Part shown: positions 1,689-18,875 of the stretch, piece after piece
Numbering within the stretch: the first letter of the stretch is position 1
Layout: the number at the start of each line of letters is the position of its first letter
Origin: an uncultured Pelagibacteraceae bacterium
Lineage (GTDB): Bacteria; Pseudomonadota; Alphaproteobacteria; Pelagibacterales; Pelagibacteraceae
Length of the DNA stretch: 64,000 bases
Assembly (NCBI GenBank): GCA_902540275.1
Contig: CACBMB010000006.1
Coordinates: 1-64,000 of the forward strand
Direction: 5' to 3'
The notes under the pieces: generated by a model
Seen by the model: only the letters and a program-made list of their open reading frames with translations
Database searches by the model: none
What the model was told of the DNA's origin: nothing
Translations under genes and position numbers: made by a program

Positions 1689-1790
1689 ATTAAATTTAAA
1701 AATTTTAATCAATTTATACTCTATACTTAATAATATACAAAAAACGACAATATTTATTAAATTTTTAAAGAGTAGCATAAAAAATTCTTC

Positions 1791-1833
1791 TTTACTGTTC
1801 AAGATTTGAACGTTATAAGTTCATTTTTTGAAC
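1791..1833 (+). promoter_or_regulatory. Promoter with two tandem 15-bp palindromic operators
   Basis: Two inverted repeats of identical design lie just before the MarR-type gene: GTTCA-AGATT-TGAAC at 1797-1811 and GTTCA-TTTTT-TGAAC at 1819-1833. Their starts are 22 bp apart, about two helical turns. A possible sigma-70 promoter, TTTACT (1791-1796) and TATAAG (1814-1819) with a 17-bp spacer, places the first palindrome exactly in the spacer and the second directly downstream of the -10. This is the layout expected for an autoregulated repressor. The palindromes are seen; the promoter and the binding protein are inferred. Confidence 0.6.
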
Positions 1834-2696: not shown

Positions 2697-3695
2697 ATGC
2701 CAAAAAAATATAAATTTCATAGTTTAGTTACAGGTGGTGCTGGTTTTATAGGTTCTCATTTGGTAGAAAAACTCATTAATAAAGGTCACGATGTTACAGT
2801 AATTGATAACTTAAGCACTGGAAGAATAGAAAATATAAAGAAAAATTTAAATAAAATAAAATTTTTCAAAAAGGACATTTCAAAATTCGATACAATAAAA
2901 AAACATTTCAAAAATATTGATTATGTTTTTCATTTAGCTGCACTAGCCGATATAGTTCCGAGTATTAATAAACCTAGAAATTATTTCAATTCAAATGTTT
3001 TAGGCACTTTAAATGTATTAGAGCTTTCAAAGATAAATAAAATAAAGAAATTTATCTACACAGCCTCGTCGTCTTGTTATGGTATTCCAAATAAATATCC
3101 AACAAATGAAAAAGAAAAAATTGATACCAAGTATCCTTATGCACTAACAAAAAAAAATGGTGAAGATCTAGTTTTGCACTGGAGTAAAATATATAAATTA
3201 AATATTTTATCTTTTAGATTGTTTAATGTATATGGAACAAAATCTAGAACATCAGGAACATATGGTGCTATGTTCGGAACATTTCTTAAACAAAAAATTA
3301 AAAATTCTCCATTTACTGTTGTAGGTAATGGAAAACAAAAAAGAGATTTTACTTATGTTACAGATGTTGTTAGTGCTCTAGTAAAAGGTATGAATTATAA
3401 GAATAAAAGCCAAGTCTTTAACGTTGGTAGCGGTCGTTCAGTTTCAATAAACTATATTTGTAAATTATTAGGAGGTAAAACTGTAAAAATCCCAAAAAGA
3501 CCTGGAGAGCCCGATATAACATTTGCCAATATTAGTAAAATTAAAAAAGAATTAAAATGGAAACCCAAAATAAGCATTGAAGATGGCGTTAAATTACTTT
3601 TAAAAGATATTAGTTATTGGAATAAAGCTCCATTATGGACACCGAAAAAAATAAAACTAGCCACAACTGATTGGTTTAAATTTCTCAAAGATTAA
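2697..3695 (+). CDS. NAD-dependent nucleotide-sugar epimerase (extended SDR, GalE/WbpP-like)
   Basis: This 332-aa extended SDR has the NAD-binding motif TGGAGFIGSHL (Gly13, 16, 19), DNLSTGR after the second strand, the ASSSCYG Ser block near residue 125 and the catalytic Y148-ALT-K152. That is the layout of UDP-glucose and UDP-GlcNAc 4-epimerases. It probably interconverts UDP-Glc/Gal or the HexNAc forms in the cytosol. It is the first biosynthetic gene after the regulatory module and is 1 bp from the next gene. Substrate cannot be fixed from sequence; a 4,6-dehydratase-like or decarboxylase-like member is less likely. Confidence 0.8.
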   Translation: MPKKYKFHSLVTGGAGFIGSHLVEKLINKGHDVTVIDNLSTGRIENIKKNLNKIKFFKKDISKFDTIKKHFKNIDYVFHLAALADIVPSINKPRNYFNSNVLGTLNVLELSKINKIKKFIYTASSSCYGIPNKYPTNEKEKIDTKYPYALTKKNGEDLVLHWSKIYKLNILSFRLFNVYGTKSRTSGTYGAMFGTFLKQKIKNSPFTVVGNGKQKRDFTYVTDVVSALVKGMNYKNKSQVFNVGSGRSVSINYICKLLGGKTVKIPKRPGEPDITFANISKIKKELKWKPKISIEDGVKLLLKDISYWNKAPLWTPKKIKLATTDWFKFLKD

Positions 3696-3696
3696 A

Positions 3697-5217
3697 ATGA
3701 AAAAAATATTTGATATAAACTCATTGCAAAGCAAAATTGAAAAACTAAAAAAAAAGAATAAAAAAATTGTTTTATGTCATGGTGTATTTGATTTAATCCA
3801 TCTAGGTCATATTAATCATCTTCAAAGTGCTAAGTCGTTTGGAGATATACTTGTAGTTTCATTGACCACAGATAAATATGTTAACAAAGGTCCAGGACGT
3901 CCATTTTTTAACGAAAAAAATAGAGCGAAAGTTATAAGTAATCTTAAGATGGTTGATTTTGTAGTCATTAACAATTCAGCTACAGCAGTAAGCTTAATTA
4001 CATTATTAAAACCCAATATATATTGTAAAGGGCCTGATTATAAAAAAAATAAGGATGATATTACTGGAGAAATAAAAAATGAAATAAAATCAATCAAACG
4101 TGTAAAAGGTAAAATAGTCTACACAGAAGGCATAACATTTAGTTCAAGTTCGTTATTAAATAAATTTTCAGATAATTTTTCAGATCAACAAAAAAAAAAA
4201 TTATCAAAAATTAATAGAAAATATAATTCAAAATATTTTGAAAAATTGTTTAGTAATTTTAATAAATTAAAAGTTTTAATTATTGGAGAAGCTATTATCG
4301 ATGAATATATCTTTTGCGACGCTTTAGGTAAATCGGGAAAAGAACCAGTCTTAGCTTTAAGAGAAATGAAATCAGAAAGATATATTGGTGGCTCTTTAGC
4401 TATTGCCCAAAATGTATCTCAATTTTGTGAAAATACAAAAATAATTACTATGCTTGGTAAAGATAATACTTATCTTAAAGAAATAAAATCTAAATTAAAT
4501 AAAAAAATAAAACTTAATTTTATAGAAAAAAAAAATTCAACCACAATTGTTAAAAAAAGATTTGTAGATTACTTAAGTTATAATAAATTACTAGGAGTTT
4601 ATAATTTAAATGATGATCTATTAAATCAAAATGATGAAGATAAGTTTCAAAAGATTTTGAGGAATCAAATACCAAAATTTGATTTAGTAATTGTGTCAGA
4701 TTATGGCCATGGACTAATTTCTAAAAAAACTTCAGATTTAATTTGTAAAAAATCAAAATTTTTGGCTTTGAATGCACAAATTAATTCTTCAAATGTTGGA
4801 TATCACACTATGAGAAACTATAAAAATTTAGAGTGTGTTATTATAAACGAAAGAGAAATAAGACATGAGTTCAGAGATAGATCAAATGACCTTAAAATAT
4901 TAATCAAAAAATTATCTAAAGAGCAAAAAATAAAAAATTTAATTGTAACGAGTGGTAAAAAGGGAGCAACACTTTACAATCTAGATAATAATAAGTTTGT
5001 ATATTCTGAAGCTTTAGCAAAAAATGTAGTTGACAAAATAGGAGCGGGTGACTCAATGTTAGCTCTGATTGCTCTATGTTTAAAATCTAAAGTTGATAAA
5101 TTATTGTCATTATTTATAGGATCGTTGGCTGCTTCTTATTCTACAGAAACTATGGCCAATAAAGAACACATAAATAAAATGAAAATATTAAAAGGTCTCG
5201 AGCATTTATTAAAATAA
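3697..5217 (+). CDS. Nucleotidyltransferase-PfkB kinase fusion (HldE-like, domains in reverse order)
   Basis: This is a 506-aa two-domain enzyme. The N-terminus is a cytidylyltransferase-fold domain (HGVFDLIHLGH, with HxGH at residues 35-38; CKGPDYKKN; ITFSSSSLLN) of the HldE/RfaE-C type. From about residue 185 it continues as a ribokinase/PfkB sugar kinase (GEAIIDEY, GGSLAIAQN, and GAGD at 449-452 with the base Asp452). E. coli HldE carries the same two activities with the kinase first. The reaction expected is heptose 7-phosphate kinase plus heptose 1-phosphate nucleotidyltransferase, fed by the SIS isomerase at 1140. An 11-A run (4190-4200) falls in the inter-domain linker. Kinase and transferase calls are firm; the heptose substrate is inferred. 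Confidence 0.8.
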   Translation: MKKIFDINSLQSKIEKLKKKNKKIVLCHGVFDLIHLGHINHLQSAKSFGDILVVSLTTDKYVNKGPGRPFFNEKNRAKVISNLKMVDFVVINNSATAVSLITLLKPNIYCKGPDYKKNKDDITGEIKNEIKSIKRVKGKIVYTEGITFSSSSLLNKFSDNFSDQQKKKLSKINRKYNSKYFEKLFSNFNKLKVLIIGEAIIDEYIFCDALGKSGKEPVLALREMKSERYIGGSLAIAQNVSQFCENTKIITMLGKDNTYLKEIKSKLNKKIKLNFIEKKNSTTIVKKRFVDYLSYNKLLGVYNLNDDLLNQNDEDKFQKILRNQIPKFDLVIVSDYGHGLISKKTSDLICKKSKFLALNAQINSSNVGYHTMRNYKNLECVIINEREIRHEFRDRSNDLKILIKKLSKEQKIKNLIVTSGKKGATLYNLDNNKFVYSEALAKNVVDKIGAGDSMLALIALCLKSKVDKLLSLFIGSLAASYSTETMANKEHINKMKILKGLEHLLK

Positions 5218-5232
5218 TTAAAAAGTATTGTC

Positions 5233-6213
5233 GTGAAAAAAATATTTATTACAGGTGGAGGAGGTTATGTTGGATCAGCCCTTGCAGATTATTTAGTTAC
5301 TAAAGATTATAAAGTGACTGCTTATGATTTGTTTCTTTATGGTGAAAATGTATTTTCAAGTAAATCAAATCTTAAAATAATCAAAGGGGATATAAGGAAT
5401 TTAGATTTGCTTAAATCAAGTATAGTTGGGCAGGACGCTGTTATTCATTTAGCATGCATATCGAATGACCCAAGTTTTGAATTAAATCCAGAGTTGGGTA
5501 AATCAATTAATTTGAATGCTTTTGAACCGCTTGTAAAAATTTCAAGAGATGCTGGGGTTAAAAGATTTATTTACGCATCATCTTCTAGCGTTTATGGGAT
5601 AAAAGAAGAGGCCAATGTCAACGAAGAGATGAATTTGGAGCCACTTACTGATTACTCAAAATTTAAAGTGGAATGTGAAAAAATATTATTTAAATATAAA
5701 AGTGAAAATTTTGATACTACTATTATAAGACCTGCAACTGTATGTGGATATTCTAAGCGACAAAGACTTGATGTTATAGTAAATATTTTAACTAATTTAG
5801 CTTATCACAATCGAGAAATTACAGTGTTTGGTGGTGAACAGTTAAGACCAAACATTCATATTAAAGATATGTTGAGGTCATATTTATGTTTATTGGAAGC
5901 TGACTCAAAAAAGGTAAATGGAGAAATATTTAATGCAGGTTGGCAAAATATGTCAGTAAATAATATAGCAGAAACTGTGAAAAATAATATTGGAAAAGAT
6001 GTTAAAATAATAAGAAGTATCTCAAATGACAATAGATCTTATCATATATCTTCTGAAAAAATTAAAAAAATTCTTAATTTTGAAACTAAATTTACAATTA
6101 AAGATGCTGTAAAAGATTTAGTGCAAGCTTTTGATAAAAAATTATTAATTAATACATTATCAGACGATATTTATTTTAATATAAAAAGAATGCAAAAAAT
6201 TAATTTAAAATAA
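5233..6213 (+). CDS. NAD-dependent epimerase/dehydratase (extended SDR)
   Basis: This 326-aa protein starts at GTG 5233, 15 bp after the preceding stop. The Rossmann motif ITGGGGYVGSAL (residues 6-17), the ACISNDPS block, ASSSSVYG near residue 117 and catalytic Y141-SKF-K145 define an extended SDR acting on a nucleotide-activated sugar. The C-terminal half has the usual substrate-binding segment (RPATVCGYS, RPNIHIKDM). It resembles the general bacterial NDP-sugar epimerase group found next to heptose or deoxyhexose genes. No specific substrate can be read from the sequence. Confidence 0.75.
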   Translation: MKKIFITGGGGYVGSALADYLVTKDYKVTAYDLFLYGENVFSSKSNLKIIKGDIRNLDLLKSSIVGQDAVIHLACISNDPSFELNPELGKSINLNAFEPLVKISRDAGVKRFIYASSSSVYGIKEEANVNEEMNLEPLTDYSKFKVECEKILFKYKSENFDTTIIRPATVCGYSKRQRLDVIVNILTNLAYHNREITVFGGEQLRPNIHIKDMLRSYLCLLEADSKKVNGEIFNAGWQNMSVNNIAETVKNNIGKDVKIIRSISNDNRSYHISSEKIKKILNFETKFTIKDAVKDLVQAFDKKLLINTLSDDIYFNIKRMQKINLK

Positions 6214-6254: not shown

Positions 6255-7292
6255 ATGCAAAAATCAAAGTTATTAAAAATATATAAAAACTTTTTAAAGA
6301 TAAGACTTTGCCAAGAAAAGATTATTGATAAATATCATCCAGAAGACAAAATGAAATGCCCAATGCACTTATGTATTGGCCAGGAGTTAATGCCATCAGT
6401 GTTAGGATATTATTTGAAAAAAAATGACTCTATTTTTAGTCATCATAGATCTCATGGATATTTTCTAGCAAATAAAGGTTCAATGAAAGAAATGATATCA
6501 GAATTTTATGGTAAAGAAACTGGAACAAATGGAGGTCTGGCTGGATCTCAAGAACTTTCTTGTACAAAAACAAATTTTTATAGTGGTACAATTTTGTCAG
6601 GAGCTTTTGCAATGGCAGTGGGTGACGCTTTTGCAAAAATATCTAAAAAACAAAATAATATTTCAGTTGCAGTTATTGGTGATGGTGGAATGGAAGAAGG
6701 TATTACATTTGAAGCAATTAATTTAGCTCACTTAATGAAACTGCCAGTTTTATTTGTTTGTGAAAATAATATGTATTCCACACATACAAATATAAAAGAG
6801 AGGTCTAGAACATCATTAGTTTCAGATAGAGTTAAAGGTTTTAGAATTAAAACGATATTAGTCAAAAATCAAAATTTATATAAGCTGGACCATATTTTAA
6901 ATAAAACAATAAACAATATGAGAAAAAACAAAGAGCCAGTTTTTTTAGAGATCTTAACTTATAGATTTAATGGTCATGTTGGTCCAGAAGGAGATGATCA
7001 CTTTAATTACAGACCAAAAAAAGAGATTAATTATTGGAAGCACAGAGATCCTTTAGTCAAGTTAGAAAAACTAATTAATTCACAAAAAATTATAAAAGAA
7101 ATTAAAAATGATATCATAAAGGAGATTACTTCGAGTTTTAATTTTGCTGAAAAGAGTAAATTAGCAAAAAAATGGGAACAGTTCAATTTCAATAATGGAT
7201 ATTCAAAAGCAGTTAAGTCATTTTATAAAAAGAGAATTTTTTTCAGTAGCAAACAAGAAGATCATAAACCGTCTTCTGGAAAACCATATTAA
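6255..7292 (+). CDS. TPP-dependent dehydrogenase/transketolase-like E1 component, alpha subunit
   Basis: This 345-aa protein has the thiamine-diphosphate motif GDGGMEEGITFEAINLA beginning near residue 142 and ending in ENNMYS, together with HRSHGYFLANKG and GTNGGLAGS. It is thus the alpha subunit of a two-subunit 2-oxoacid dehydrogenase E1 type enzyme. The beta subunit follows after 2 bp. No lipoyl-acyltransferase (E2) or dihydrolipoyl dehydrogenase (E3) gene is nearby, so normal oxidative acyl transfer is unlikely. In polysaccharide loci such pairs may transfer a short carbon unit to, or from, a sugar. The cofactor is certain; the reaction is inferred. The 41-bp upstream gap has a T-run but no clear terminator. 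Confidence 0.85.
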   Translation: MQKSKLLKIYKNFLKIRLCQEKIIDKYHPEDKMKCPMHLCIGQELMPSVLGYYLKKNDSIFSHHRSHGYFLANKGSMKEMISEFYGKETGTNGGLAGSQELSCTKTNFYSGTILSGAFAMAVGDAFAKISKKQNNISVAVIGDGGMEEGITFEAINLAHLMKLPVLFVCENNMYSTHTNIKERSRTSLVSDRVKGFRIKTILVKNQNLYKLDHILNKTINNMRKNKEPVFLEILTYRFNGHVGPEGDDHFNYRPKKEINYWKHRDPLVKLEKLINSQKIIKEIKNDIIKEITSSFNFAEKSKLAKKWEQFNFNNGYSKAVKSFYKKRIFFSSKQEDHKPSSGKPY

Positions 7293-7294
7293 TT

Positions 7295-8287
7295 ATGATT
7301 AAAACAAATAGAATACTCTCTTTTTCTCAGGCTATAAAGGAGGCTCAAACACAAGCAATGAAGATAGATCCTAAGGTTTTTATTTTTGGGTTAGGTGTAG
7401 ATAAAACAGCACATATATTTTCAACAACAAAAAATTTAAAGCAAAAGTTTGGAAAAAAAAGAATATTTGACACACCAGCTTCGGAGCAAGCATTGACCAT
7501 GTTTGCAGCTGGGGCAGCAAATGCTGGAATGAGACCAATTTTAATTCATCAAAGACTTGATTTCATGGTTTACACTTTTGATCAACTTGTAAACTGGATT
7601 GCTTTATGGTCTTTTAAAAGTGCAGGTAAAAGTAAAATGCCTCTAGTAATAAGAGCTGTAGTAGGAAGAGGTTGGGGTCAAGGTCCACAGCATGCTAAGT
7701 GTTTACATTCAATGTTTGCTCATGTACCAGGCTTAAAAATTGTAATGCCTTCATCTCCGTCTGAAGCTAAAGGATTGTTGTTATCAAGCATATTTTCAAA
7801 TGATCCTGTAATTTTTATTGAGTATAGATCTCTGTATAATTCTAAAGAATTTGTCCCTCAGAAACCTTATTTTCTAGATATTGATACTCCAAATTTAAGA
7901 ATTAAAGGTAAAGATTTTACCGTAGTTTCTATTGGTGCCGGTGTTCTTACGAGTTTGAGAGCCTCAAAAATTCTTGAAAAAAATAATATTAGTTTTGATT
8001 TATTCGATTGTAGAAGCGCTAATTCTTTTAAAATGGCTAAAATTTTCAATTCATTAAAAAAAACAAAAAGATTGTTAGTCGTAGAAGATGGATGGTCTAA
8101 AATTAGTTTTTCATCTGAAGTTATCTCAAGAGTTGTAGAAAGTGGTATAAAATTAAAAAGTCCACCATCAAGAATTGCCTGGCCAAACTCACATATACCA
8201 ATGAGCACTAAACTAGAAAAAAATTTTTATTTTAGCGAAAATGAAATTGTAAATAAAATAAAAAATCAATTTATAAATACCTTATAA
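7295..8287 (+). CDS. TPP-dependent E1 component, beta (pyrimidine-binding) subunit
   Basis: This 330-aa protein pairs with the preceding alpha subunit. FDTPASEQALTMFAAGAANAG carries the conserved Glu that activates the thiamine aminopyrimidine, and RAVVGRGWGQGPQHAKCLHSMF and the KIVMPSSPSEAKGLL block are typical of the E1 beta pyrimidine domain. A transketolase C-terminal domain follows (VSIGAGVL, LVVEDGW). Length is normal for the family. The two subunits should form a heterotetramer in the cytosol. Their location among SDR sugar enzymes points to sugar modification rather than central metabolism. Confidence 0.85.
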   Translation: MIKTNRILSFSQAIKEAQTQAMKIDPKVFIFGLGVDKTAHIFSTTKNLKQKFGKKRIFDTPASEQALTMFAAGAANAGMRPILIHQRLDFMVYTFDQLVNWIALWSFKSAGKSKMPLVIRAVVGRGWGQGPQHAKCLHSMFAHVPGLKIVMPSSPSEAKGLLLSSIFSNDPVIFIEYRSLYNSKEFVPQKPYFLDIDTPNLRIKGKDFTVVSIGAGVLTSLRASKILEKNNISFDLFDCRSANSFKMAKIFNSLKKTKRLLVVEDGWSKISFSSEVISRVVESGIKLKSPPSRIAWPNSHIPMSTKLEKNFYFSENEIVNKIKNQFINTL

Positions 8288-8289
8288 AA

Positions 8290-9129
8290 ATGAAAATACT
8301 TCTTTTTGGTTACACCGGAAAACTTGGAAATGCCATATATTTTAGATTAAAAAAAAAAAATAAATTTTTTCTTTATAATTCAAAAAATTTAAATATTGCA
8401 AAAATAAATAAGATTAAATTAAGCAAAATCATAGAAAAACTAAATCCTGAAGTTGTAATTAACTGTATAGCATTTCAAGGTATAGAAAAGTCTAATAAAA
8501 AACGAACATTGTGTTTAAAAGTGAACTCATTATTTCCAAAATATTTAGCTCAATTACAAAATAAAAATTTTTTTTATTTAATACACTTTAGTAGTGAGAC
8601 TATTTTTAGTGACTCTAAAAAAGGAAAATTTATAGATGAAAAAGTGTCTCCTAGACCAAAAAGTTATTATGGATATACAAAACTTTATGGTGAAAATAGT
8701 ATAAAAAAATTTGGAAAAAATTATTTGATTATAAGATTACCTCTCTTATATGGAGGCAAAAACAGAAATCAACCCCTAGATAAAATTTTTAAAAAATTAA
8801 TAAAAAATCAAGATGTTTATATAAATGATGATTTGTATACAACACCAACCAATGTATCCGATGTTGCTAAAATTATTTCAAAGGTATTAAATAAAAAGAA
8901 ATTACAGTCAAAGAAAGTAGTAAATATATCAAATTCAGGGTATGTTAAATTCAGTCATTTTATCAAGGATTATGCAAAAAAACTTAAAAGTGAATCGACA
9001 ATATATCTTAAGAATAGTAAGTATTTTCATAAAAATAATTTGAGAAATTGGCATACTCCAATGACTACAAACTATAAAGAATTTAAGTTACGAAGTTGGA
9101 AAAAATCCTTAACTGAACATTTAAGCTAG
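8290..9129 (+). CDS. RmlD-like nucleotide-sugar 4-keto reductase (SDR)
   Basis: This 279-aa protein begins MKILLFGYTGKLGNAI, the RmlD-type nucleotide-binding loop (G7, G10, G13). It continues with VINCIAFQGIE, HFSSETIFSD and catalytic Y127-GYT-K131, then RLPLLYGG. This is the arrangement of dTDP-4-dehydrorhamnose reductases. In this cassette it would reduce a keto-sugar, perhaps the product of the TPP enzyme or of an SDR dehydratase. No RmlA, B or C gene is present, so dTDP-rhamnose itself is unlikely to be the product. A 12-A run (8349-8360) lies near the N-terminus. It is 2 bp from the gene before and 4 bp from the next. Confidence 0.75.
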   Translation: MKILLFGYTGKLGNAIYFRLKKKNKFFLYNSKNLNIAKINKIKLSKIIEKLNPEVVINCIAFQGIEKSNKKRTLCLKVNSLFPKYLAQLQNKNFFYLIHFSSETIFSDSKKGKFIDEKVSPRPKSYYGYTKLYGENSIKKFGKNYLIIRLPLLYGGKNRNQPLDKIFKKLIKNQDVYINDDLYTTPTNVSDVAKIISKVLNKKKLQSKKVVNISNSGYVKFSHFIKDYAKKLKSESTIYLKNSKYFHKNNLRNWHTPMTTNYKEFKLRSWKKSLTEHLS

Positions 9130-9133
9130 AAGC

Positions 9134-9775
9134 ATGAATACAAAAAAATTTAGTAAATCTGATGGAAATTTGAAAATAGTTATATATTTTAACAGTCAAA
9201 GTCTTAAAGTTGATTCTTTGGAATTTGAAATTATCAATAATCATTATAACCAATATAATAAACATTTAGAATTTTTAAGACAATTTGTTCAAAACAAAAA
9301 AATACAAGAAGTTTATGATCATGCCACACTTTATGTAATGGAAGAATTTTCCAAAATAACTTTAACAAAAATATTACTTGTTAAAAATCATAAAGAACAA
9401 TTTTATAGAGATTTAGAAAATTTACTAAGATCTATTGCAAGAGAAGTAGTGAGAGAATATCAGATAAAAAGATCTATAAATTTTTCTTATAAAGCAACCT
9501 CATCTGATTGGATTTTATTAAGTCAAAAAGAAAAAGAAAAAATTATTTTTGATAATTTTAAAAAACAAGTAAACTTATCAAAAGAAAATATTAAAATTTT
9601 AAATATTGAAAAAAATAAAATCACTCTAGAATTTTTAGGAGATATTAAACCAGAAATAAAAGCAAAAACTTTGCTTGACATGGAATACTTTTTAAGAAAG
9701 AATGTAGAATCGACACTTGAACTGTTTGTTGAAGAAATGCAAGATCAAAGCCAACTAAGGAGATTGTACAAATAA
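9134..9775 (+). CDS. Uncharacterised protein joined to a radical SAM gene
   Basis: I recognise no family in this 213-aa protein. It is soluble, has no signal peptide or membrane segment and contains no cysteine, so it cannot itself carry an Fe-S cluster. The middle (residues 90-125) is a strongly basic and acidic helical stretch. The C-terminus alternates strand and helix (ITLEFLGDIKPEIKAKTLLD), somewhat like a small alpha/beta domain. Its stop TAA is immediately followed by the ATG of the radical SAM gene (TAAATG), so the two are almost certainly translated together. A helper or substrate-binding partner for that enzyme is my inference. Confidence 0.75.
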   Translation: MNTKKFSKSDGNLKIVIYFNSQSLKVDSLEFEIINNHYNQYNKHLEFLRQFVQNKKIQEVYDHATLYVMEEFSKITLTKILLVKNHKEQFYRDLENLLRSIAREVVREYQIKRSINFSYKATSSDWILLSQKEKEKIIFDNFKKQVNLSKENIKILNIEKNKITLEFLGDIKPEIKAKTLLDMEYFLRKNVESTLELFVEEMQDQSQLRRLYK

Positions 9776-10930
9776 ATGACGTCAAAGCATGACAAGCATG
9801 GTTTATACACCAATTACGAAGAAACTCCAGATGAACTGATTTTGGATGGCACCAAGATATCTTGGCATCAAGAAAGAATTAAGAAGTGGGAAAAGGGAGA
9901 GAGAATTGCCCCTATAACGATAGACTTAGCTTTAACGAGAAGTTGTAATTATGGTTGTCATTTTTGTTACGCTATGGTTCAGGAAAACGATAGATCAACT
10001 ATCACTAAAGAACATATTGATAGTTTTTTAGAGGATGCCGCAGAAATTGGTGTCAAAGGTATAAGTCTTATTTCAGATGGCGAAAGCACAGTTTCTCCTC
10101 TTTACACACATTCAATTGTAAAAGGTGGTACGCTTGGGATATCTATGGCTTCAGGAACTAACGGTTTTTTACTAACACCGGAAAAACTCAATAAAATTTT
10201 GCCTCATTTAACATATTTGAGATTTAATATTTCAGCAGGAGAACCGGCAAGGTACGCTGAGATAATGGGTTGTAAAGAAAAATGGTTCCATAAAGTTGTA
10301 GAGAATATCAAAAGTGCAGTCAAAATAAAAAAAGAAAATAAACTTAAAGTTACTATAGGTATGCAAATGGTTTTTATGCCTCAATATTATGACCAACTAG
10401 TTCCTTTGGCAAAACTTGGAAAAGAATTAAGACCGGACTATTTAGTTATTAAACAATGTAGCGATAATGAAGATGGTTCATTGGGTGTGAAATACAGTGA
10501 TTATAAAAAACATTTTGAACTTTTAAAAGAAGCAGAGTCATATTCTGATGACGAGTACAAAGTTCACGTTAAGTGGAGCAAAATAGAATCTGAAGGTGTT
10601 AGAACATATCAAAGATGCTATGGACCACCTTTTTTCCTACAAGTTTCAGGAAGTGGATTAATCGCTCCTTGCGGTCAATTGTTTAACGAACAATACAAAA
10701 AATTTCACATGGGAAATATTACCCAAAAAAGATTTAAAGATATTTGGCAAAGCGATAGATACTGGGAAGTAATGCGCTATTTATCTTCACCAGAATTTAA
10801 TGCGCAAACTATGTGTGGAAATTTATGTCTTCAAGATAAAGTTAATCAATATCTTGATAATTATGTAAAAGACTCATTTGAAACGAAAAAACCAAAGGGT
10901 AAGACGCCTCAACATATAAATTTCATTTAA
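9776..10930 (+). CDS. Radical SAM / SPASM-type enzyme
   Basis: This 384-aa protein has the radical SAM cluster motif C57-x3-C61-x2-C64 (RSCNYGCHFCYAM) in the first third, then a GISLISDGEST block for SAM binding. Its C-terminal SPASM-like domain has cysteines at about 281, 299, 347 and 351 (IAPCGQLF, MCGNLCLQ) for an auxiliary Fe-S cluster. It would use a 5'-deoxyadenosyl radical for a difficult modification. The cassette suggests a sugar or sugar-linked substrate. Its DNA is less AT-rich than its neighbours: 40% GC in 9841-9900 against 8% in 8341-8400. Family call is firm, reaction unknown. Confidence 0.85.
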   Translation: MTSKHDKHGLYTNYEETPDELILDGTKISWHQERIKKWEKGERIAPITIDLALTRSCNYGCHFCYAMVQENDRSTITKEHIDSFLEDAAEIGVKGISLISDGESTVSPLYTHSIVKGGTLGISMASGTNGFLLTPEKLNKILPHLTYLRFNISAGEPARYAEIMGCKEKWFHKVVENIKSAVKIKKENKLKVTIGMQMVFMPQYYDQLVPLAKLGKELRPDYLVIKQCSDNEDGSLGVKYSDYKKHFELLKEAESYSDDEYKVHVKWSKIESEGVRTYQRCYGPPFFLQVSGSGLIAPCGQLFNEQYKKFHMGNITQKRFKDIWQSDRYWEVMRYLSSPEFNAQTMCGNLCLQDKVNQYLDNYVKDSFETKKPKGKTPQHINFI

Positions 10931-10949
10931 TAATTTTCAATCTTTAAAC

Positions 10950-10979
10950 TTGATTTTCAATAATGTTAAAAATTATAAA
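10950..10979 (+). promoter_or_regulatory. Possible sigma-70 promoter
   Basis: The 93-bp gap after the radical SAM gene is one of the longest on the plus strand. It contains TTGATT (10950-10955), an 18-bp spacer and TATAAA (10974-10979), 44 bp before the next ATG. In DNA this AT-rich such matches arise often by chance, so this is only a candidate internal promoter. Confidence 0.25.
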
Positions 10980-11023
10980 TAAATTTAGATGAATTTATTG
11001 TTAAAAAATTATAGATTTATTAG

Positions 11024-11320
11024 ATGTTTTTTTTAGACTTATTAGAACTTGAAAAAAGATATAATGATGTTTTGATATCAACAGCTAGAGGTTTCGAACT
11101 TGATCACGAATTTCTAGAAATATGGGTACCTGGAGTTTTTAAAGAAGAGTCTGTAAAAAATTTTTTTGAAGCGGCAAAAATATATAATGTTGAAAAGAAA
11201 TTTGGTTTAACGATAAACAAAAAGAGTATTAGCGAAAAAGATCTCGATAAAATAAAGTCTCTGCCTAAAGATTATACAGTTCAAGTTAAAGAAGCAATAC
11301 TTGAAATAAAGCTTACTTAA
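11024..11320 (+). CDS. Small uncharacterised protein (98 aa)
   Basis: This is a soluble, acidic and basic mixed protein without cysteine, signal peptide or membrane segment. The first half is predicted helical (LLELEKRYNDVLI; EESVKNFFEAAKIY) and the second half alternates short strands (FGLTINKK; YTVQVKEAILEIKLT). I recognise no domain. It lies between the radical SAM gene and the SDR/2OG-oxygenase group and is in the same direction. It may therefore belong to the same modification cassette, perhaps as a small accessory or carrier protein. The start ATG is the only one giving this frame after the 93-bp gap. Confidence 0.65.
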   Translation: MFFLDLLELEKRYNDVLISTARGFELDHEFLEIWVPGVFKEESVKNFFEAAKIYNVEKKFGLTINKKSISEKDLDKIKSLPKDYTVQVKEAILEIKLT

Positions 11321-11347
11321 AATAATTTATTAAAACTAAATTTGATA

Positions 11348-12094
11348 ATGAATAAGTTAATTAAAAATAAAAAAATTTTAATCACTGGTGCCTCTGGTAG
11401 TTTAGGTTCACAATTAGCTAAAGATTTTTCAAAGCTTAATGTTAACTTAATTTTACAAGGAAGATCGCTAACTAAACTTAAAAAAATAAAATTGAAAAAT
11501 AAAAATCGTCATAGCCTTTTGAGTCTAGATTTTAATCATGAGAATAGTATGACAGAATTAAATAATTTTTTTAAAAATGAATTTTATCCAGACATAGTTG
11601 TGCATTGTCTAGGAGGTTCATTTGGTATCAATCGCACATTTAGTAGTAGAGACGATTGGACAAAAGTTTGGAATATGAACTTAGGATATTCTCATGAAAT
11701 CAATAATACTGTTATCCCAAAAATGGTAAAAAAAAATTGGGGAAGAATAATTCATTTATCATCCATTTCTACTACTTTTATAAAAGGAAACGCTCCCTAT
11801 ATATCAGCGAAATATGCGTTAGAAGGCTATGTAAAATCAGTGAGTAAAGAAATTTCTAAAAATAATGTGATTATGTTGTGTGTATCACCAGGTATTATTG
11901 ATATAAAAAATAGATATTTCAACAAACTAAAAAAAGAAAAAAAAAATGAATTTAAAAATTTTATGAAAGCACACATTCCTATTAACCGAATGGCTTCACT
12001 AAAAGAGATTTCAAATTTAATATTATTTCTATCAAGTGACAATTCTTCATATATGCCAGGTTCTATTGTTAAGATAGATGGTCAAGGAAATTAA
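11348..12094 (+). CDS. Classical short-chain dehydrogenase/reductase
   Basis: This 248-aa protein has the classical SDR fold: ITGASGSLGSQLAKDF (TGxxxGxG, about residues 11-26), the HCLGGSFG strand in place of NNAG, HLSSIST with the catalytic Ser, and Y-ISA-K (PYISAKYAL). The tail ends MPGSIVKIDGQ, typical for this class. It should oxidise or reduce a hydroxyl or keto group with NAD(P)H. A TTG two codons upstream (11342) could also start it, but ATG 11348 gives the normal N-terminus. It abuts the 2OG oxygenase gene directly (TAAATG). Substrate is unknown. Confidence 0.8.
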   Translation: MNKLIKNKKILITGASGSLGSQLAKDFSKLNVNLILQGRSLTKLKKIKLKNKNRHSLLSLDFNHENSMTELNNFFKNEFYPDIVVHCLGGSFGINRTFSSRDDWTKVWNMNLGYSHEINNTVIPKMVKKNWGRIIHLSSISTTFIKGNAPYISAKYALEGYVKSVSKEISKNNVIMLCVSPGIIDIKNRYFNKLKKEKKNEFKNFMKAHIPINRMASLKEISNLILFLSSDNSSYMPGSIVKIDGQGN

Positions 12095-12853
12095 ATGATT
12101 GATTTTAGTAATGGTTATTGTGTCGTAGAAACTAAAAATCTTGAAATTTTAAAAGATTTAAGATCTAAAATTTATGATGAAGTAAAAAAAATATTTAATA
12201 TTAAAGAGTTAAATATTGATGAGGGATTTAATTTATTTCACAACCATATAAAAAATGAAACAGCAGGTTCTTTGAATTCAAAAAGAATTGAACTTATTAA
12301 AAATATAAATAAAAATATTGATATTACATATAAAATTTATGAGGCATTTGAGGATTATATAGTTGAACTTATAGGGCCAGACGTTCTTGGGCAAAAAATT
12401 GCTAATTTAGTGATTCAAATTCCTAACGATCAAAATCCAGGAGAAATACACAGAGATGCGCCTGCAAACTCACCTTATGAAATTGTAATGTGGGTTCCTT
12501 TAGTAGATAGCTATGGAACCAAAACAATGTCTATTTTAGATTATGAAAATACTAAGATTAATCTAAAAAATTTGAAAGAGAACAATAATTGGGAACAACT
12601 AGAAAAAAATGTTTATAATAAATCTCCTCAATTAGATGTAAAATTTGGTCAGGCCCTTATTTTTATGACTAGTTTATTACATGGAGCCAAAATAAATAAA
12701 GAAAAAACTACCAGATTTTCCTTAAATACTAGATTTAAAAATATTTTTGCTCCATCTGGATTAAAAAATCAATTACAATTTTTTAAGAAAATAAAGGAGT
12801 CAAATTTAGTTAAGTATGGATCACATATAGAATTAGAAGAACTACTTAAATGA
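12095..12853 (+). CDS. 2OG-Fe(II) oxygenase of the sporadic carbohydrate cluster type
   Basis: This 252-aa protein has the jelly-roll iron triad of 2-oxoglutarate dioxygenases: H119-R-D121 (EIHRDAPAN), distal H196 (LLHGAKIN), and R207 to bind 2-oxoglutarate. VMWVPLVDSYGTKTMSIL lies between them. The sequence and its partner, the LIC12192-family gene overlapping by 4 bp, match the pair that recurs in sporadic carbohydrate clusters of diverse bacteria. It probably hydroxylates or desaturates a sugar or lipid-linked sugar in the cytosol. The family call comes from motif layout and context; no substrate is known to me. Confidence 0.75.
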   Translation: MIDFSNGYCVVETKNLEILKDLRSKIYDEVKKIFNIKELNIDEGFNLFHNHIKNETAGSLNSKRIELIKNINKNIDITYKIYEAFEDYIVELIGPDVLGQKIANLVIQIPNDQNPGEIHRDAPANSPYEIVMWVPLVDSYGTKTMSILDYENTKINLKNLKENNNWEQLEKNVYNKSPQLDVKFGQALIFMTSLLHGAKINKEKTTRFSLNTRFKNIFAPSGLKNQLQFFKKIKESNLVKYGSHIELEELLK

Positions 12854-13242
12854 AAAATTTCTTCACGTGTATAGACATAACTCTTACTTCACCACAACCA
12901 GAACAATTATCACTATGCAGGCAACATGCAATTAATAATGGTGGAGAAGTTGTTTTTTATGGTAGTGAAGATCTATCATGTCATGAAAAACAAAGTTTTA
13001 TTTTATATAAATTGAAAAAAACAGATAACATTTCAGATGTAGTTTTTTTTACTATCAATCAATTTTGTTATGATACTAAAATAAATATTAAATTAATGAG
13101 TGACATCATTAATTCAAATTATGGTTTACATTTTGCCAGAGAAAATTTAATTTTTCAATCAAATGAAGATTTGTATAAATTTAGAGTTGAAATACTCGCA
13201 TATTTTCATTCATTTAAAAGACTAAGTAAAAGTATAAAATAA
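12850..13242 (+). CDS. LIC12192-family sporadic carbohydrate cluster protein
   Basis: This 130-aa protein overlaps the oxygenase gene by the ATGA of its start. It is soluble and has three early cysteines (C7, C23, C49), a GGEVVFYGSEDLSCHEKQ block and a C-terminal YGLHFARENLIF segment. Size, position and this block fit the small LIC12192-type family named from Leptospira, which travels with the 2OG oxygenase in surface carbohydrate clusters. The family function is unknown. The translational overlap suggests it works with, or stabilises, the oxygenase. Confidence 0.65.
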   Translation: MKNFFTCIDITLTSPQPEQLSLCRQHAINNGGEVVFYGSEDLSCHEKQSFILYKLKKTDNISDVVFFTINQFCYDTKINIKLMSDIINSNYGLHFARENLIFQSNEDLYKFRVEILAYFHSFKRLSKSIK

Positions 13243-14571: not shown

Positions 14572-15573
14572 GTGAAAAAATTTTTTATAACTGGCGGTGA
14601 GGGATTTATTGGTTCTCATTTAATTGAGCAAATTATCAAAAATGGTGACCATGTAAATGCTCTGGTTAATTATAATTCATTTGGAAACATTGGATGGTTA
14701 GAAAATTGTATGAATCATAAGAATATAAATATTTTCTTTGGGGATTTAAAAGATCCAGACACATACTCAAAATTTTTAGTAAAATCTGATTATGTAATTA
14801 ATCTTGCATCATTAATTAGTGTCCCATATTCATACACTGCATCGAAATCAAATTTAGAAAACAATATTTTGGGATCTCATTTTTTATACAATTCATGCAT
14901 AAATTTAAAAATTAAAAAAATAATTCATGTTTCTTCTAGCGAAGTTTATGGCACTCCAAAAAAAATTCCTATTAACGAAACAACAATCTTCAATCCACAA
15001 TCTCCATACGCTGCAAGTAAAGCAGGAAGCGATCATGTGGCAAAGTCATATTTTTATTCTTATGGTTTGCCAATAGTTATTATACGACCATTTAATAATT
15101 TTGGACCAAGACAATCTTCTAGAGCAGTTATACCAACAATAATTTTTCAAGCACTGAAAGGAAATGAGATAAAACTCGGAAATATAAATACTCAAAGAGA
15201 CTTTTTGTTTGTTGAGGACACAGTTAGAGGATTACTCAGTACAATAAATTGCAACAATAATTTAGCAGGAGAAGAAATTAATTTAGGAACCAACTTTTGT
15301 TTTCAGATTAAAGAAATACTAAATTTAATTTCTTTAATAATTAATAAAAAGTTAAAAGTAAAACTTAATAAGAGTAAACTAAGACCAAAAAAAAGTGAAG
15401 TTGAGATATTGATTTGTGATTATTCTAAAGCAAAAAGAATTCTTAGATGGGAACCAAAATATAAAGGTAAAAATGGAATGAAGTTAGCACTGACCAAAAC
15501 TATAAATTGGTATCAAAAAAATTATCAAAATAAATTATTAAATTTTAAATCAAAAAAAGTTTTTTTTAAATAG
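14572..15573 (+). CDS. legB: LegB-like NDP-GlcNAc 4,6-dehydratase
   Basis: This 333-aa extended SDR starts at GTG 14572. ITGGEGFIGSHL (G8-G14) is followed by ALVNYNSFGNIGWLE, a signature of the LegB subgroup, then VSSSEVYGTPKKIPINE and Y146-AAS-K150. LegB removes water from GDP-GlcNAc (or UDP-GlcNAc) to make the 4-keto-6-deoxy sugar, the first committed step to legionaminic acid. The next genes encode aminotransferase, hydrolysing 2-epimerase, synthase and cytidylyltransferase in pathway order, which strongly supports the call. A GDP rather than UDP substrate is suggested by the PtmE-like gene at 19786. Confidence 0.82.
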   Translation: MKKFFITGGEGFIGSHLIEQIIKNGDHVNALVNYNSFGNIGWLENCMNHKNINIFFGDLKDPDTYSKFLVKSDYVINLASLISVPYSYTASKSNLENNILGSHFLYNSCINLKIKKIIHVSSSEVYGTPKKIPINETTIFNPQSPYAASKAGSDHVAKSYFYSYGLPIVIIRPFNNFGPRQSSRAVIPTIIFQALKGNEIKLGNINTQRDFLFVEDTVRGLLSTINCNNNLAGEEINLGTNFCFQIKEILNLISLIINKKLKVKLNKSKLRPKKSEVEILICDYSKAKRILRWEPKYKGKNGMKLALTKTINWYQKNYQNKLLNFKSKKVFFK

Positions 15574-15576
15574 AAT

Positions 15577-16725
15577 ATGATGATAGAAAAAAAAATTTAC
15601 TCATCAATTTTAAAAGCTTTACCAAAAAAAAATCGATATCCCTTAAGCGAACCCGAAATTAACAATGTTGATAAAAGAATTATTTTAGAGTGTTTAAAAA
15701 CTGGCTGGGTTTCTTCAAATGGTATATATTTACTTAAATTTAAAAAAAAAATTCAACAAATTTTAAAAAATAAATTTATAGTCCCTGTAATTAATGGTAC
15801 TTCAGCTTTACATCTTGCCCTAATTGCAGCTAAAATTAAAAAAAATGATGAAGTAATTATTCCAGATTTATCTTATGTTTCAGCAGCTAATTCAATTAAA
15901 TATTTAGGTGCTACTCCAAATCTTGTAGATATTGAAACAGACAGTTATTCTATATGTCCAAAAAAACTAGAGTTTTACATTAAAAAAATTTGCATAAAAA
16001 AAAATGGATTTTTGCTTAATAAGAATACTGGTCGATATATTAAAGCTTTAATTTTAGTCCATGTTTTTGGATATACTGGTAACATAATTAAAATAAAACA
16101 ATTGTGTAAAAAATATAATTTAAAATTTATTGAGGATTCATCTGAATGTCTTGGTTCTTTTTTTAAAAAAAAACATTTAGGGACATTTGGAGATTTTGGA
16201 GTTTTAAGTTTTAATGGTAATAAGATAATTACGACTGGGGGTGGTGGAGCAGTAATATGTAATTCCAAAAAAAATTATAAATTACTAAAACATATTAGTG
16301 CAAATAGTAAAATTAATCATAAATGGAAATTTTATCATGATCGTATAGGTTATAATTATAGATTATCAAATTTAGCAGCTTCCTTAGGCTATTCTCAAAT
16401 CTTAAGGTTAAACTATTTTTTAAAAAAAAGATCTAAATTATATACTAAATATTTAAAATATTTTTCTTCTATAAAAGAAATTCAAATGTATAAACCAATA
16501 AAAGACTCTAAACCAAATCATTGGTTAATGTCATTCAGAATTAACAAAAAATATGCAAATCAACAATCAAAGATATTAAGTTACTTAATTAAAAAGAAAA
16601 TTTTTGTAAGACCTCCTTGGGAATTGATGAGTAGCTTGCCTATGTATAAACGTTGTCCCAAAGATAAAAATATTAATGCTCAAAATGTTCAAAAAACAGT
16701 CATTTGTTTACCCTCGAGTTTATGA
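15577..16725 (+). CDS. legC: LegC-like 4-aminotransferase (DegT/DnrJ family)
   Basis: This 382-aa PLP enzyme of the DegT/DnrJ/EryC1 type has a GTSALHLALIAAKI block for PLP phosphate binding, IEDSSECLG with the Asp that pairs with the PLP nitrogen, and Lys216 in SFNGNKIITTGGGG for the Schiff base. It would aminate the 4-keto product of LegB using glutamate. It begins 3 bp after legB and overlaps the next gene by ATGA. The N-terminal part, with PLSEPEINNVDKRIILECLKTGWVSS, is typical of the LegC subgroup. Confidence is high for the family and good for the role. Confidence 0.82.
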   Translation: MMIEKKIYSSILKALPKKNRYPLSEPEINNVDKRIILECLKTGWVSSNGIYLLKFKKKIQQILKNKFIVPVINGTSALHLALIAAKIKKNDEVIIPDLSYVSAANSIKYLGATPNLVDIETDSYSICPKKLEFYIKKICIKKNGFLLNKNTGRYIKALILVHVFGYTGNIIKIKQLCKKYNLKFIEDSSECLGSFFKKKHLGTFGDFGVLSFNGNKIITTGGGGAVICNSKKNYKLLKHISANSKINHKWKFYHDRIGYNYRLSNLAASLGYSQILRLNYFLKKRSKLYTKYLKYFSSIKEIQMYKPIKDSKPNHWLMSFRINKKYANQQSKILSYLIKKKIFVRPPWELMSSLPMYKRCPKDKNINAQNVQKTVICLPSSL

Positions 16726-17816
16726 TAAATATAGCTATCTTTTCATCAAATAGGGCAGATCTTTCATTTTTATATAATTTGTGTAGATTATTTGAAAAAA
16801 ATAACAAATATAAAGTTAAGACCATCTTAAGTGAGACTTCTAAGATAGATTTTAGATATATTAAAAGAAAAAATATTATTCAAGCTAATCTTAAAAATAT
16901 CAATACAGGAAGATATAATTTAATTAAAATATTGAGTAAATTACTCAATAAATACACAAAGTTGTTAGCAAAAATAAAACCTAAATATTTAATAATCGTA
17001 GGAGATCGTTACGAGTCTTTTGCAATGACAATTGTTTGTAATTTTTTGAATATAAAAATTATTCATATTGCAGGAGGAGATATTACAAAAGGTGCTTATG
17101 ATGATGAAATAAGAACCTATATAAGCAAATCATCATATATAAATTTTGTTACAAATGATGAGTCAAAAAAAAATTTAAAAAATTTAATTAAGGATAACTC
17201 AAAAATTTTTGATTATGGTAGTCCATCTTTAGATTATATCAAAGAAATTAGAAATGTTAGCAAAAAAGAAATATCTCAAAGATTAAATCTTTCTTTCAAT
17301 AAAAATAATATTCTAGTAACTTTTCATCCAGAAACAAAATATTTAAATTCAACTCTAAGAAATTTAAAGAATTTATTAGCATCATTAATAAGTCTTGGAA
17401 ATGAATATAATATTTATTTTACAGGTTCTAATATCGATACTTTTGGAAAAATATTTAATAAAACAATAAAAGATACAGTTAACAGAAAAAATAACTTTTA
17501 TTTTTTTTCAAACTTAGGGAGCAAAAACTACATTCAGTTAGCGAAAAATTGCGATATAATTATTGGGAATTCATCCAGCATTGTATATGAGATGCCATTT
17601 TTAGGTTTAAAATCTATTTTAGTTGGTCGAAGACAAGATGGAAGATTTATGTCAAATAAGATAACTAAAATTGAGGCAAAAAAAAAAACAATTATTAAAA
17701 CTATAAAAAAAATTATCAGAAAAAAAAATCCCAAAAAAGAGTTAAAAACATTCGGTAACGGAAACTCCTCAAAGAAGATTTTTAAAAAGATACATAGTCT
17801 TATAAATGACAAATAA
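16722..17816 (+). CDS. legG: LegG/NeuC-like hydrolysing NDP-sugar 2-epimerase
   Basis: This 364-aa protein has the UDP-GlcNAc 2-epimerase (GT-B like) fold: IVGDRYESFAMTI, IHIAGGDITKGAYDDEIR, FHPETKYLNST and IGNSSSIVYEMPFLG. GDR and GGE/D-type motifs mark the hydrolysing branch (NeuC/LegG), which frees the 2-epimerised amino sugar from its nucleotide. I chose ATG 16722, which overlaps the legC stop as ATGA. A TTG at 16704 would add six residues not seen in the family. It precedes the synthase gene, overlapping it by 11 bp, as expected in a nonulosonate operon. Confidence 0.82.
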   Translation: MINIAIFSSNRADLSFLYNLCRLFEKNNKYKVKTILSETSKIDFRYIKRKNIIQANLKNINTGRYNLIKILSKLLNKYTKLLAKIKPKYLIIVGDRYESFAMTIVCNFLNIKIIHIAGGDITKGAYDDEIRTYISKSSYINFVTNDESKKNLKNLIKDNSKIFDYGSPSLDYIKEIRNVSKKEISQRLNLSFNKNNILVTFHPETKYLNSTLRNLKNLLASLISLGNEYNIYFTGSNIDTFGKIFNKTIKDTVNRKNNFYFFSNLGSKNYIQLAKNCDIIIGNSSSIVYEMPFLGLKSILVGRRQDGRFMSNKITKIEAKKKTIIKTIKKIIRKKNPKKELKTFGNGNSSKKIFKKIHSLINDK

Positions 17817-18873: not shown

Positions 18874-18875
18874 AA

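Follow-up and report, generated by a model that had tools for sequence, protein, structure and literature searches.

The 64,000 nt stretch analysed here (the window; positions 1 to 64,000 of contig CACBMB010000006.1 from the 1.2-Mb genome of an uncultured Pelagibacteraceae bacterium) is a long glycan-biosynthesis island. Between positions 6255 and 13242 it carries nine open reading frames (ORFs), among them a two-subunit thiamine diphosphate (ThDP) enzyme and a radical S-adenosylmethionine (SAM) enzyme. An initial annotation had taken these nine genes for a complete pathway leading to an unusual sugar. The coordinates of all nine were confirmed. They are encoded on the plus strand and are tightly packed, with successive intergenic gaps of 2, 2, 4, 0, 93, 21, 0, and −4 nt. 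The ThDP pair, the RmlD-like reductase, the radical SAM/SPASM enzyme, and the short-chain dehydrogenase/reductase (SDR) were confirmed by Pfam. The GC content of the cassette is 0.271, compared to 0.235 for the window. The proposed bounds proved too narrow: the pathway starts upstream of position 6255, and four co-members had been omitted (1140, 2697, 3697, and 5233; genes are referred to by their first position). The genes of the cassette are:

1140–1802, minus strand: GmhA-like sugar-phosphate isomerase with an SIS domain, part of the conserved core (NCBIfam gmhA, 89.6 bits)
2697–3695, plus strand: NAD-dependent epimerase/dehydratase (Epi2697; Pfam)
3697–5217, plus strand: HldE-like bifunctional enzyme (HldE'), nucleotidyltransferase followed by PfkB kinase (Pfam, NCBIfam)
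5233–6213, plus strand: NAD-dependent epimerase (Epi5233; Pfam)
6255–7292, plus strand: ThDP enzyme, E1 alpha subunit (Pfam E1_dh; GDG...NN motif)
7295–8287, plus strand: ThDP enzyme, E1 beta subunit (Pfam Transket_pyr and Transketolase_C)
8290–9129, plus strand: RmlD-like reductase, putative accessory tailoring enzyme (Pfam RmlD_sub_bind)
9134–9775, plus strand: C-terminal part of an accessory protein, ACC, with a predicted IscU/NifU-like fold and an Nfu-like C-terminal domain (alignment to the ACC profile, fold from the model of a homolog; no Pfam family over cut-off)
9776–10930, plus strand: radical SAM enzyme with one four-cysteine auxiliary site, SPASM/twitch-like (Pfam Radical_SAM and SPASM)
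11024–11320, plus strand: N-terminal part of ACC, beyond the radical SAM gene (alignment to homologs; no Pfam family over cut-off)
11342–12094, plus strand: SDR-family reductase, putative tailoring enzyme (Pfam adh_short_C2)
12095–12853, plus strand: 2-oxoglutarate (2OG)-Fe(II) oxygenase, TIGR04324 (NCBIfam; HxD...H triad; no Pfam family over cut-off)
12850–13242, plus strand: TIGR04323-like (LIC12192) protein with a predicted serine-recombinase catalytic fold (weak NCBIfam match, structure model; no Pfam family over cut-off)

Orthologs of the radical SAM enzyme were found in 8 of 297 genomes of the order, many of which are incomplete (8 of 12 matches were counted; the weak ones in G168, G103, G273, and G216, at 42.7–86.6 bits, were left out). 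A search of 84,980 species genomes with an alignment of these eight yielded 124 relatives, of which the best 80 were kept; the window itself and two further loci from SAR11 bring the set to 83 loci. Forty of these have at least 8 kb on each side of the gene and are referred to as fully flanked. Neighborhoods were counted by six-frame profile searches using bit thresholds that we chose ourselves.

A common set of genes accompanies the radical SAM enzyme. Both an HldE-like enzyme and a ThDP enzyme of any kind occur in 37 of the 40 fully flanked loci, followed by Epi5233 (32), E1 alpha (31), E1 beta (30), two DegT aminotransferase families (27 for DegT-a, 26 for DegT-b), Epi2697 (25), and the GmhA-like isomerase (20). 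The corresponding counts for all 83 loci are 60 (HldE-like), 65 (ThDP enzyme), 46 (Epi5233), 41 (Epi2697), and 33 (GmhA-like), and the combination of HldE-like enzyme, Epi5233, E1 alpha, E1 beta, and both DegT proteins is present in 23 of them. In roughly two thirds of the fully flanked loci, two DegT aminotransferases are encoded; neither is present beside the radical SAM gene of the window. The lysine of the HPLKN motif, which we take to be the pyridoxal phosphate lysine, is kept in 53/53 and 40/40 members of the two DegT families. The canonical order is seen on a complete plasmid of Azospirillum oryzae (NZ_CP054615.1), where the genes are, by their NCBI names, epimerase, SDR, PfkB kinase, SIS, SDR, E1 alpha, transketolase C-terminal protein (our E1 beta), DegT, DegT, hypothetical protein (the accessory gene), and radical SAM. 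Near the sugar cassette of that plasmid (L253:20334-22055) there are also genes for a PqqD-family protein, a lasso-peptide B2-type protein, a 2OG oxygenase, and an asparagine-synthetase-like protein.

The initial annotation was thus right about a recurring set which couples carbon-unit transfer with radical chemistry, as the gene-neighborhood search that it had suggested finds the radical SAM enzyme, the HldE-like enzyme, and the ThDP enzyme together. The nine genes as such do not co-occur as one fixed, complete set: the oxygenase/12850 pair is present in only 3 and an RmlD homolog in only 6 of the 83 loci.

Across the order, an HldE-like gene is found in 42 of the 297 genomes, namely in 7 of the 8 with the radical SAM enzyme compared to 35 of the 289 others (Fisher's exact test, 5e-6). 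E1 alpha is found in 27 genomes (4 of 8 compared to 23 of 289; Fisher 0.003). The radical SAM enzyme is therefore tied to the core, yet the core also exists without it.

Despite about 16 phylum-level host labels, 70 of the 80 kept relatives are 60–71% identical to the radical SAM enzyme of the window. These labels come mostly from metagenome bins, so that binning errors are possible; the hosts include isolates of Azospirillum, Nisaea, Herbaspirillum, and Malaciobacter. In the tree, the enzyme of the window groups with copies from Campylobacterota and Elusimicrobia, outside a ten-row SAR11 clade (support 88 only), which would fit a horizontal gain.

Uncultured phages carry the same sugar cassette. 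A scan of IMG/VR detected the radical SAM gene in 47 viral contigs; 46 of these loci have a full match, and 43 are distinct after removal of identical copies. HldE-like genes are present in 34, ThDP genes in 37, GmhA-like genes in 25, and the accessory domain in 35 of the 43. Among the 27 well-flanked contigs (distinct, with at least 5 kb before and at least 4 kb after the radical SAM gene) the respective numbers are 25, 26, 19, and 24, and Epi5233 and DegT are found in 4 each. The cassette of locus L207 is surrounded by genes for a terminase, a portal protein, and a major head protein; a portal protein is encoded in L206 and a major head protein in L231. When 79 large proteins encoded outside the cassette in 40 viral loci were compared with phage families, several were found to belong with terminases, portal proteins, and head proteins (counted per family, not per locus). 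A methyltransferase (13 loci) or glycosyltransferase-like genes (weak PHROG matches) lie beside the cassette in some phage loci. Many of the E1 subunits in the viral contigs (L206–L252) are miniature: in the main phage group the median is 199 aa for E1 alpha and 197 aa for E1 beta (clusters of 27 and 26 loci). The single phage E1 beta that was scanned shows the Transket_pyr domain only. The profiles for Epi2697, Epi5233, RmlD, and SDR 11342 matched few phage loci (other SDRs were not searched for), which leaves the radical SAM enzyme as the best remaining candidate for ketone formation there. No match to the radical SAM enzyme of L207 (1e-30) or to the HldE-like enzyme (1e-15) was found in 50,697 records of cultured phages. 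Radical SAM cassettes and rfaE have been seen in pelagimyophages (PMC7029224), and another report describes a phage that carries paaD and 12 radical SAM genes (PMC5332604); the consulted passages of the two draw no link to the gene set described here.

The association of the radical SAM enzyme, the C-terminal domain of ACC, and the HldE-like, GmhA-like, and ThDP enzymes thus extends over bacteria and phage contigs. It is very probable that the radical SAM enzyme, the accessory protein, the HldE-like enzyme, and the ThDP enzyme function together.

Protein 9776 has the CxxxCxxC motif at residues 57–64 and a SPASM domain according to Pfam. The motif is kept in all 83 loci, and the four auxiliary cysteines (C281, C299, C347, and C351) are all kept in 74. 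They are lost together in the remaining nine, where the partner protein is in each case reduced to its C-terminal domain; these nine form one clade in the tree, so that the loss was probably a single event. The top match among solved structures is BtrN, over residues 279–352 in the region of the auxiliary cluster (E 8.6e-4). BtrN is a SPASM/twitch enzyme with a four-cysteine auxiliary site that oxidizes a carbinol to a ketone. Protein 9776 resembles it in having CxxxCxxC and a four-cysteine auxiliary site, but exceeds the solved BtrN chains (269–270 aa) by about 115 residues, has a dedicated accessory protein, and shows a similarity of only about 22 bits.

The initial annotation listed three uncharacterized proteins in the cassette. 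None of them matches a Pfam family over the cut-off, but two (9134 and 11024) are, by sequence comparison, the halves of a single accessory protein, ACC, and the third (12850) has a predicted resolvase fold. In L034 and L035, one protein of 379–383 aa contains both 9134-like and 11024-like parts. Protein 11024 is 36–40% identical over 47–50 aa to fused homologs of about 380 aa, and 9134 aligns with positions 139–352 of the 355 positions in the ACC profile. The alignment of ACC proteins comprises only 38 fused members. A separate N-terminal ORF (>60 bits) is present in 18 of the 83 loci, the window included. The accessory gene was detected in 71 of the 83 loci, and weaker short forms lie directly upstream of the radical SAM gene in L096, L051, and L114; it was not found in the others, some of which are at contig ends. 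Long and short forms have the C-terminal domain in common. In L039 (8851-10287), a divergent radical SAM protein (38% identical) is extended at its N-terminus by a stretch which, judged by eye, is similar to this domain, as if the two were fused.

Structure prediction, which had been suggested for 9134 and 11024, was run on the full-length fused homolog from L063 (AlphaFold2; predicted local distance difference test score, pLDDT, 91.3). Residues 115–255 of the model are IscU/SufU/NifU-like (2z7e_B, IscU: Z 12.5, root-mean-square deviation [rmsd] 2.9 Å, 123 residues aligned). Residues 267–355 are predicted to be Nfu-like (C-terminal domain of NFU1, 2m5o: Z 8.8, rmsd 3.5, 80 aligned), and this domain also resembles RbfA/RimP-like folds (Z 6–7). 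Foldseek returned four matches to the model at E ≤ 0.001, all of them IscU/SufU, and the four matches of the ACC profile to PDB sequences up to E 10 are all NifU/IscU (E 0.03–0.6). Pfam NifU_N matches 2 of the 38 ACC members (best E 0.001). IscU/NifU scaffolds have three conserved cluster-binding cysteines. These are not kept in ACC: among the columns occupied by L063, one cysteine column is filled in 27 of 38 members and the next in 5, and neither 9134 nor 11024 contains a cysteine. ACC thus shares predicted folds with IscU/SufU/NifU and the Nfu C-terminal domain but differs in lacking the cluster-ligand cysteines and in having an extra N-terminal domain. Because the scaffold cysteines are not kept, we read the modeled protein as a scaffold-like fold probably turned to another use. 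A strict correlation of the auxiliary cluster with the NifU-like domain, which seemed complete among the partners first detected, was rejected, as short partners coexist with four kept cysteines in L051, L096, L114, and the viral loci, where accessory partners are mostly shorter than 120 aa and 42 of the 43 distinct radical SAM enzymes keep all four.

Genes 6255 and 7295 code for an E1 alpha/E1 beta pair with the GDG...NN ThDP motif in E1 alpha. The pair is distinct from the housekeeping pyruvate dehydrogenase, a role that was rejected since AceE is encoded elsewhere in the genome (1426.5 bits). Apart from one 22-bit match, no second E1 alpha was found in this genome. Three classes of ThDP enzyme interchange in this cassette slot: among the 40 fully flanked loci, E1 alpha/beta is the sole kind in 29, an acetolactate synthase (ALS)/YerE-like enzyme in 3, and a split transketolase in 3, while 2 have two kinds and none was found in 3. 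The ALS-like counts were obtained with a Pfam-verified ThDP protein as query and later with a rebuilt profile, and example proteins were checked by Pfam. The best solved relatives of one ALS-like enzyme from the slot (P0002, 577 aa) are acetolactate synthase 5ahk and the "thiamine pyrophosphate-binding protein" 8rph.

According to the consulted sections of a 2025 review (PMC12247030), the ThDP classes which accept ketones and branch sugars are the YerE-like decarboxylases and alphaKADH2, which is of the E1 alpha/beta type; for split-gene transketolases, sugar branching has been proposed without proof in vitro, and the 13 candidates are all from Streptomycetes. It is mainly because the three classes found in the cassette are the three established or proposed keto-sugar-branching classes of this review that we interpret the cassette as encoding a C-branching pathway. 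Two-subunit, pyruvate dehydrogenase-like ThDP enzymes, which are alphaKADH2 branching enzymes, are likewise found in the sugar clusters of avilamycin (AviB1/AviB2, eurekanate) and paulomycin (Pau11/Pau12, paulomycose). AviB1/AviB2 are described together with the non-heme iron enzyme AviO2 (PMC4425429), and in the paulomycin case a ketoreductase comes next (PMC4425429, PMC4753412). These systems belong to Streptomyces antibiotics and are likened here by description only; the consulted passages of the two papers mention neither HldE/GmhA-like genes nor a radical SAM enzyme. YerE, also likened by description only, branches a CDP-keto-sugar in lipopolysaccharide (yersiniose A; PMC12247030) but is a single protein acting on CDP-3,6-dideoxy-4-keto-glucose, and the consulted sections of the review mention no radical SAM enzyme for it.

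The oxygenase 12095 is a true member of TIGR04324 (185.1 bits, cut-off 150) and has the HxD...H motif. The LIC12192-family label given to 12850 is right in kind but formally not warranted, with 23.0 bits (E 6e-5) against TIGR04323 and a curated cut-off of 55; the protein is a divergent relative and the usual partner of the oxygenase. That the two families, both named for a "sporadic carbohydrate cluster," recur together is borne out. Among 28 loci which have an HldE-like gene and no radical SAM gene, 13 code for the oxygenase, in each case together with the partner, and both are present in the three radical SAM loci where either occurs (the window, L090, and L113). The 28 loci were taken from 35 genomes with an HldE-like gene and without a counted radical SAM gene; G055, G067, G082, G091, G103, G159, and G197 were left out, G055 being covered as L041 in a separate comparison of pair-bearing loci. 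Within SAR11 the contrast is modest, with the pair in 13 of the 28 loci without and 3 of 18 with the radical SAM gene (Fisher 0.038; a few of the 28 come from the order outside SAR11). In other alphaproteobacteria (L172–L176) the pair sits on a core of Epi2697, HldE-like enzyme, Epi5233, ThDP enzyme, and DegT. A ThDP enzyme was found in 13 of 16 pair-bearing loci and in none of L042, L181, and L182, the loci having been chosen partly for these families. The examined settings of TIGR04323/TIGR04324 thus show the same HldE-like/Epi5233/ThDP core as the cassette. Because the pair is mostly found without the radical SAM enzyme, yet on the same core, the oxygenase pair and the radical SAM pair look like alternative oxidative modules, of which the window has both and so appears to be a hybrid.

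The clusters of L172–L177, from alphaproteobacterial genomes of 3–8 Mb, combine TIGR04323/TIGR04324 with a split transketolase and are candidate split-transketolase branching systems outside Streptomyces.

For the model of 12850 (pLDDT 84, from 14 sequences), the top 25 rows of structural matches are recombinases (best Z 12.5, rmsd 5.7, 124 aligned; 4bqq_A, Z 12.4, rmsd 3.3, 126 aligned). It also matches ribosome-associated GTPases and periplasmic binding proteins at Z 7–9, which was taken as a general Rossmann-like resemblance. Serine recombinases have a conserved N-terminal catalytic serine. No invariant serine was found in the first 40 columns of the 14 12850-type sequences.

We thus suggest that the window carries one local version of a conserved gene cassette, whose product would be a heptose-like surface sugar with a carbon branch. 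The whole reaction chain is proposed tentatively, as a realistic possibility, and each reaction and product is what we infer. The GmhA-like isomerase 1140 and the HldE-like enzyme 3697 would form a nucleoside diphosphate (NDP)-heptose-like sugar, judging from family membership at scores below the curated cut-offs. By analogy to BtrN, the radical SAM enzyme 9776 with ACC (9134 and 11024) may oxidize one carbinol to a ketone; this role is assigned because of the few SDR-profile matches in phage loci and the resemblance to BtrN in the auxiliary region. The ThDP enzyme 6255/7295 would then transfer a two-carbon unit from a 2-oxo acid onto the ketone, creating a tertiary-alcohol branch, a step suggested by the precedents of AviB1/AviB2 and YerE and by the proposal for split transketolases. 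The RmlD-like protein 8290 and SDR 11342 would act as reductases, and the oxygenase 12095 with 12850 may add a second oxidation; in related loci, reductases or aminotransferases and the oxygenase pair would finish the sugar. That this radical route holds in full is rather doubtful, that is, that a radical SAM enzyme and a cysteine-less partner of IscU/Nfu fold make a ketone on an NDP-heptose-like sugar, that a ThDP carboligase of interchangeable class branches it, that this occurs under about 16 phylum-level labels and in tailed phages, and that the 2OG oxygenase/resolvase-fold pair substitutes for the radical SAM enzyme in some bacteria.

Several points weigh against this proposal. The similarity to BtrN is low and covers part of the protein only (21.8 bits), phages could borrow SDRs from their hosts, and 3 of the 40 fully flanked loci are without a detected ThDP enzyme. 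Branching by transketolases is itself unproven in the literature. The core is wider than the radical SAM enzyme, with HldE-like genes in 35 and E1 alpha in 23 of the 289 genomes that do not have it, and gene context does not fix the order of the radical SAM and ThDP steps. The cassette has the same domains and families as the HldE/GmhA heptose pathway, but the domain order of 3697 is the reverse of that in HldE, and its scores are below the HldE equivalog cut-offs (139.8 compared to 345 and 115.7 compared to 181.5 bits), as is that of 1140 for gmhA TIGR00441 (209.45 bits). For a GmhB/HisB-type phosphatase (one model, TIGR01656), only a single weak, partial match was found in the 94%-complete genome. 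These scores and the single phosphatase match make a heptose substrate uncertain.

An unlikely alternative is that the ThDP enzyme acts at the start, making a ketose phosphate in a transketolase- or DXS-like reaction, which the GmhA-like enzyme isomerizes and the HldE-like enzyme activates, with the radical SAM enzyme tailoring later. These three enzymes are the common minimal set in phages, and a split transketolase would directly fit the formation of a sedoheptulose 7-phosphate-type product; acetolactate synthase-like enzymes in the same slot (one of them with 5ahk and 8rph as best relatives) argue otherwise, and 1-deoxy-ketoses do not isomerize to aldoses at C1. We would likewise not expect the window to be simply a hypervariable glycan island with unrelated sugar modules side by side, in which the nine genes are not one pathway. 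The slightly raised GC content of the cassette, the usual separation of the oxygenase and radical SAM pairs, and the position of the radical SAM enzyme with Campylobacterota and Elusimicrobia rather than in the SAR11 clade would all agree with it, but both pairs are found elsewhere on the same HldE-like/Epi5233/ThDP core.

It is quite improbable that the radical SAM enzyme and ACC serve to mature a protein or peptide, for instance a phage virion component or a cluster or side chain in a partner enzyme, and are linked to the sugar genes only physically. SPASM proteins often are maturases, the best NCBIfam match of 9776 is a tungsten-cofactor maturase model (far below the cut-off, with 76 compared to 380 bits), ACC has predicted Fe-S scaffold folds, and some phage copies lie among head genes. 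The HldE-like, GmhA-like, and ThDP genes, however, accompany the radical SAM enzyme in unrelated hosts and phages, and no conserved small substrate peptide was seen in the locus maps (no systematic search for one was made). In LipA, the auxiliary cluster is sacrificed and NfuA refills it. A corresponding sulfur insertion, with the NifU/Nfu-like partner refilling the auxiliary cluster and a thiosugar as product, would agree with the predicted folds of the partner and with its reduction to the C-terminal domain in all nine radical SAM loci that have lost the auxiliary cysteines. These nine losses form one clade and so count as one event, the partner has not kept the scaffold cysteines, and short partners accompany intact auxiliary sites, so that we regard sulfur insertion as highly improbable.

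ThDP-dependent sugar branching is known already. What appears to be new is that it is coupled, in bacteria and phages, to a radical SAM enzyme whose partner has an IscU-like fold, on a core of HldE- and GmhA-like enzymes, as no description of this gene set was found in the open-access literature (preprints not covered). The same search found no paper on SpoChoClust/LIC12192 and no description of phage auxiliary metabolic genes with these enzymes. The proposed pathway brings together, in a single testable scheme, a highly conserved radical SAM family that has no name, an accessory family for which Pfam has no entry of its own, and the two orphan "sporadic carbohydrate cluster" families. ThDP branching enzymes require a ketone, which a radical reaction may supply. 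The scheme also predicts Azospirillum, Nisaea, Herbaspirillum, and SAR11 as possible sites of undescribed C-branched sugars, and adds candidate split-gene transketolases outside Streptomyces. A relation to bradyrhizose was considered; the gdh primer peptides and DNA given in the consulted part of the published report (PMC4743980) are absent from the loci except for an FLPYK motif in L057, and no link is claimed.

The window codes for further proteins of interest. A second radical SAM protein (39214–40224) scores best against maturase and MoaA-like models without reaching the cut-off of any. A 390-aa protein among glycan genes (24108–25280), without an NCBIfam match at 1e-20, looks amidinotransferase-like by eye. 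A legionaminic acid-like nonulosonate set (14572–21533) includes LegC-family (429 bits, cut-off 420) and NeuC (283, cut-off 236) proteins as well as LegB-like (350, cut-off 475), NeuB-like (326, cut-off 400), and PseF-like (108, cut-off 206) proteins that score below cut-off, together with a formyltransferase-like gene and a nucleotidyltransferase.

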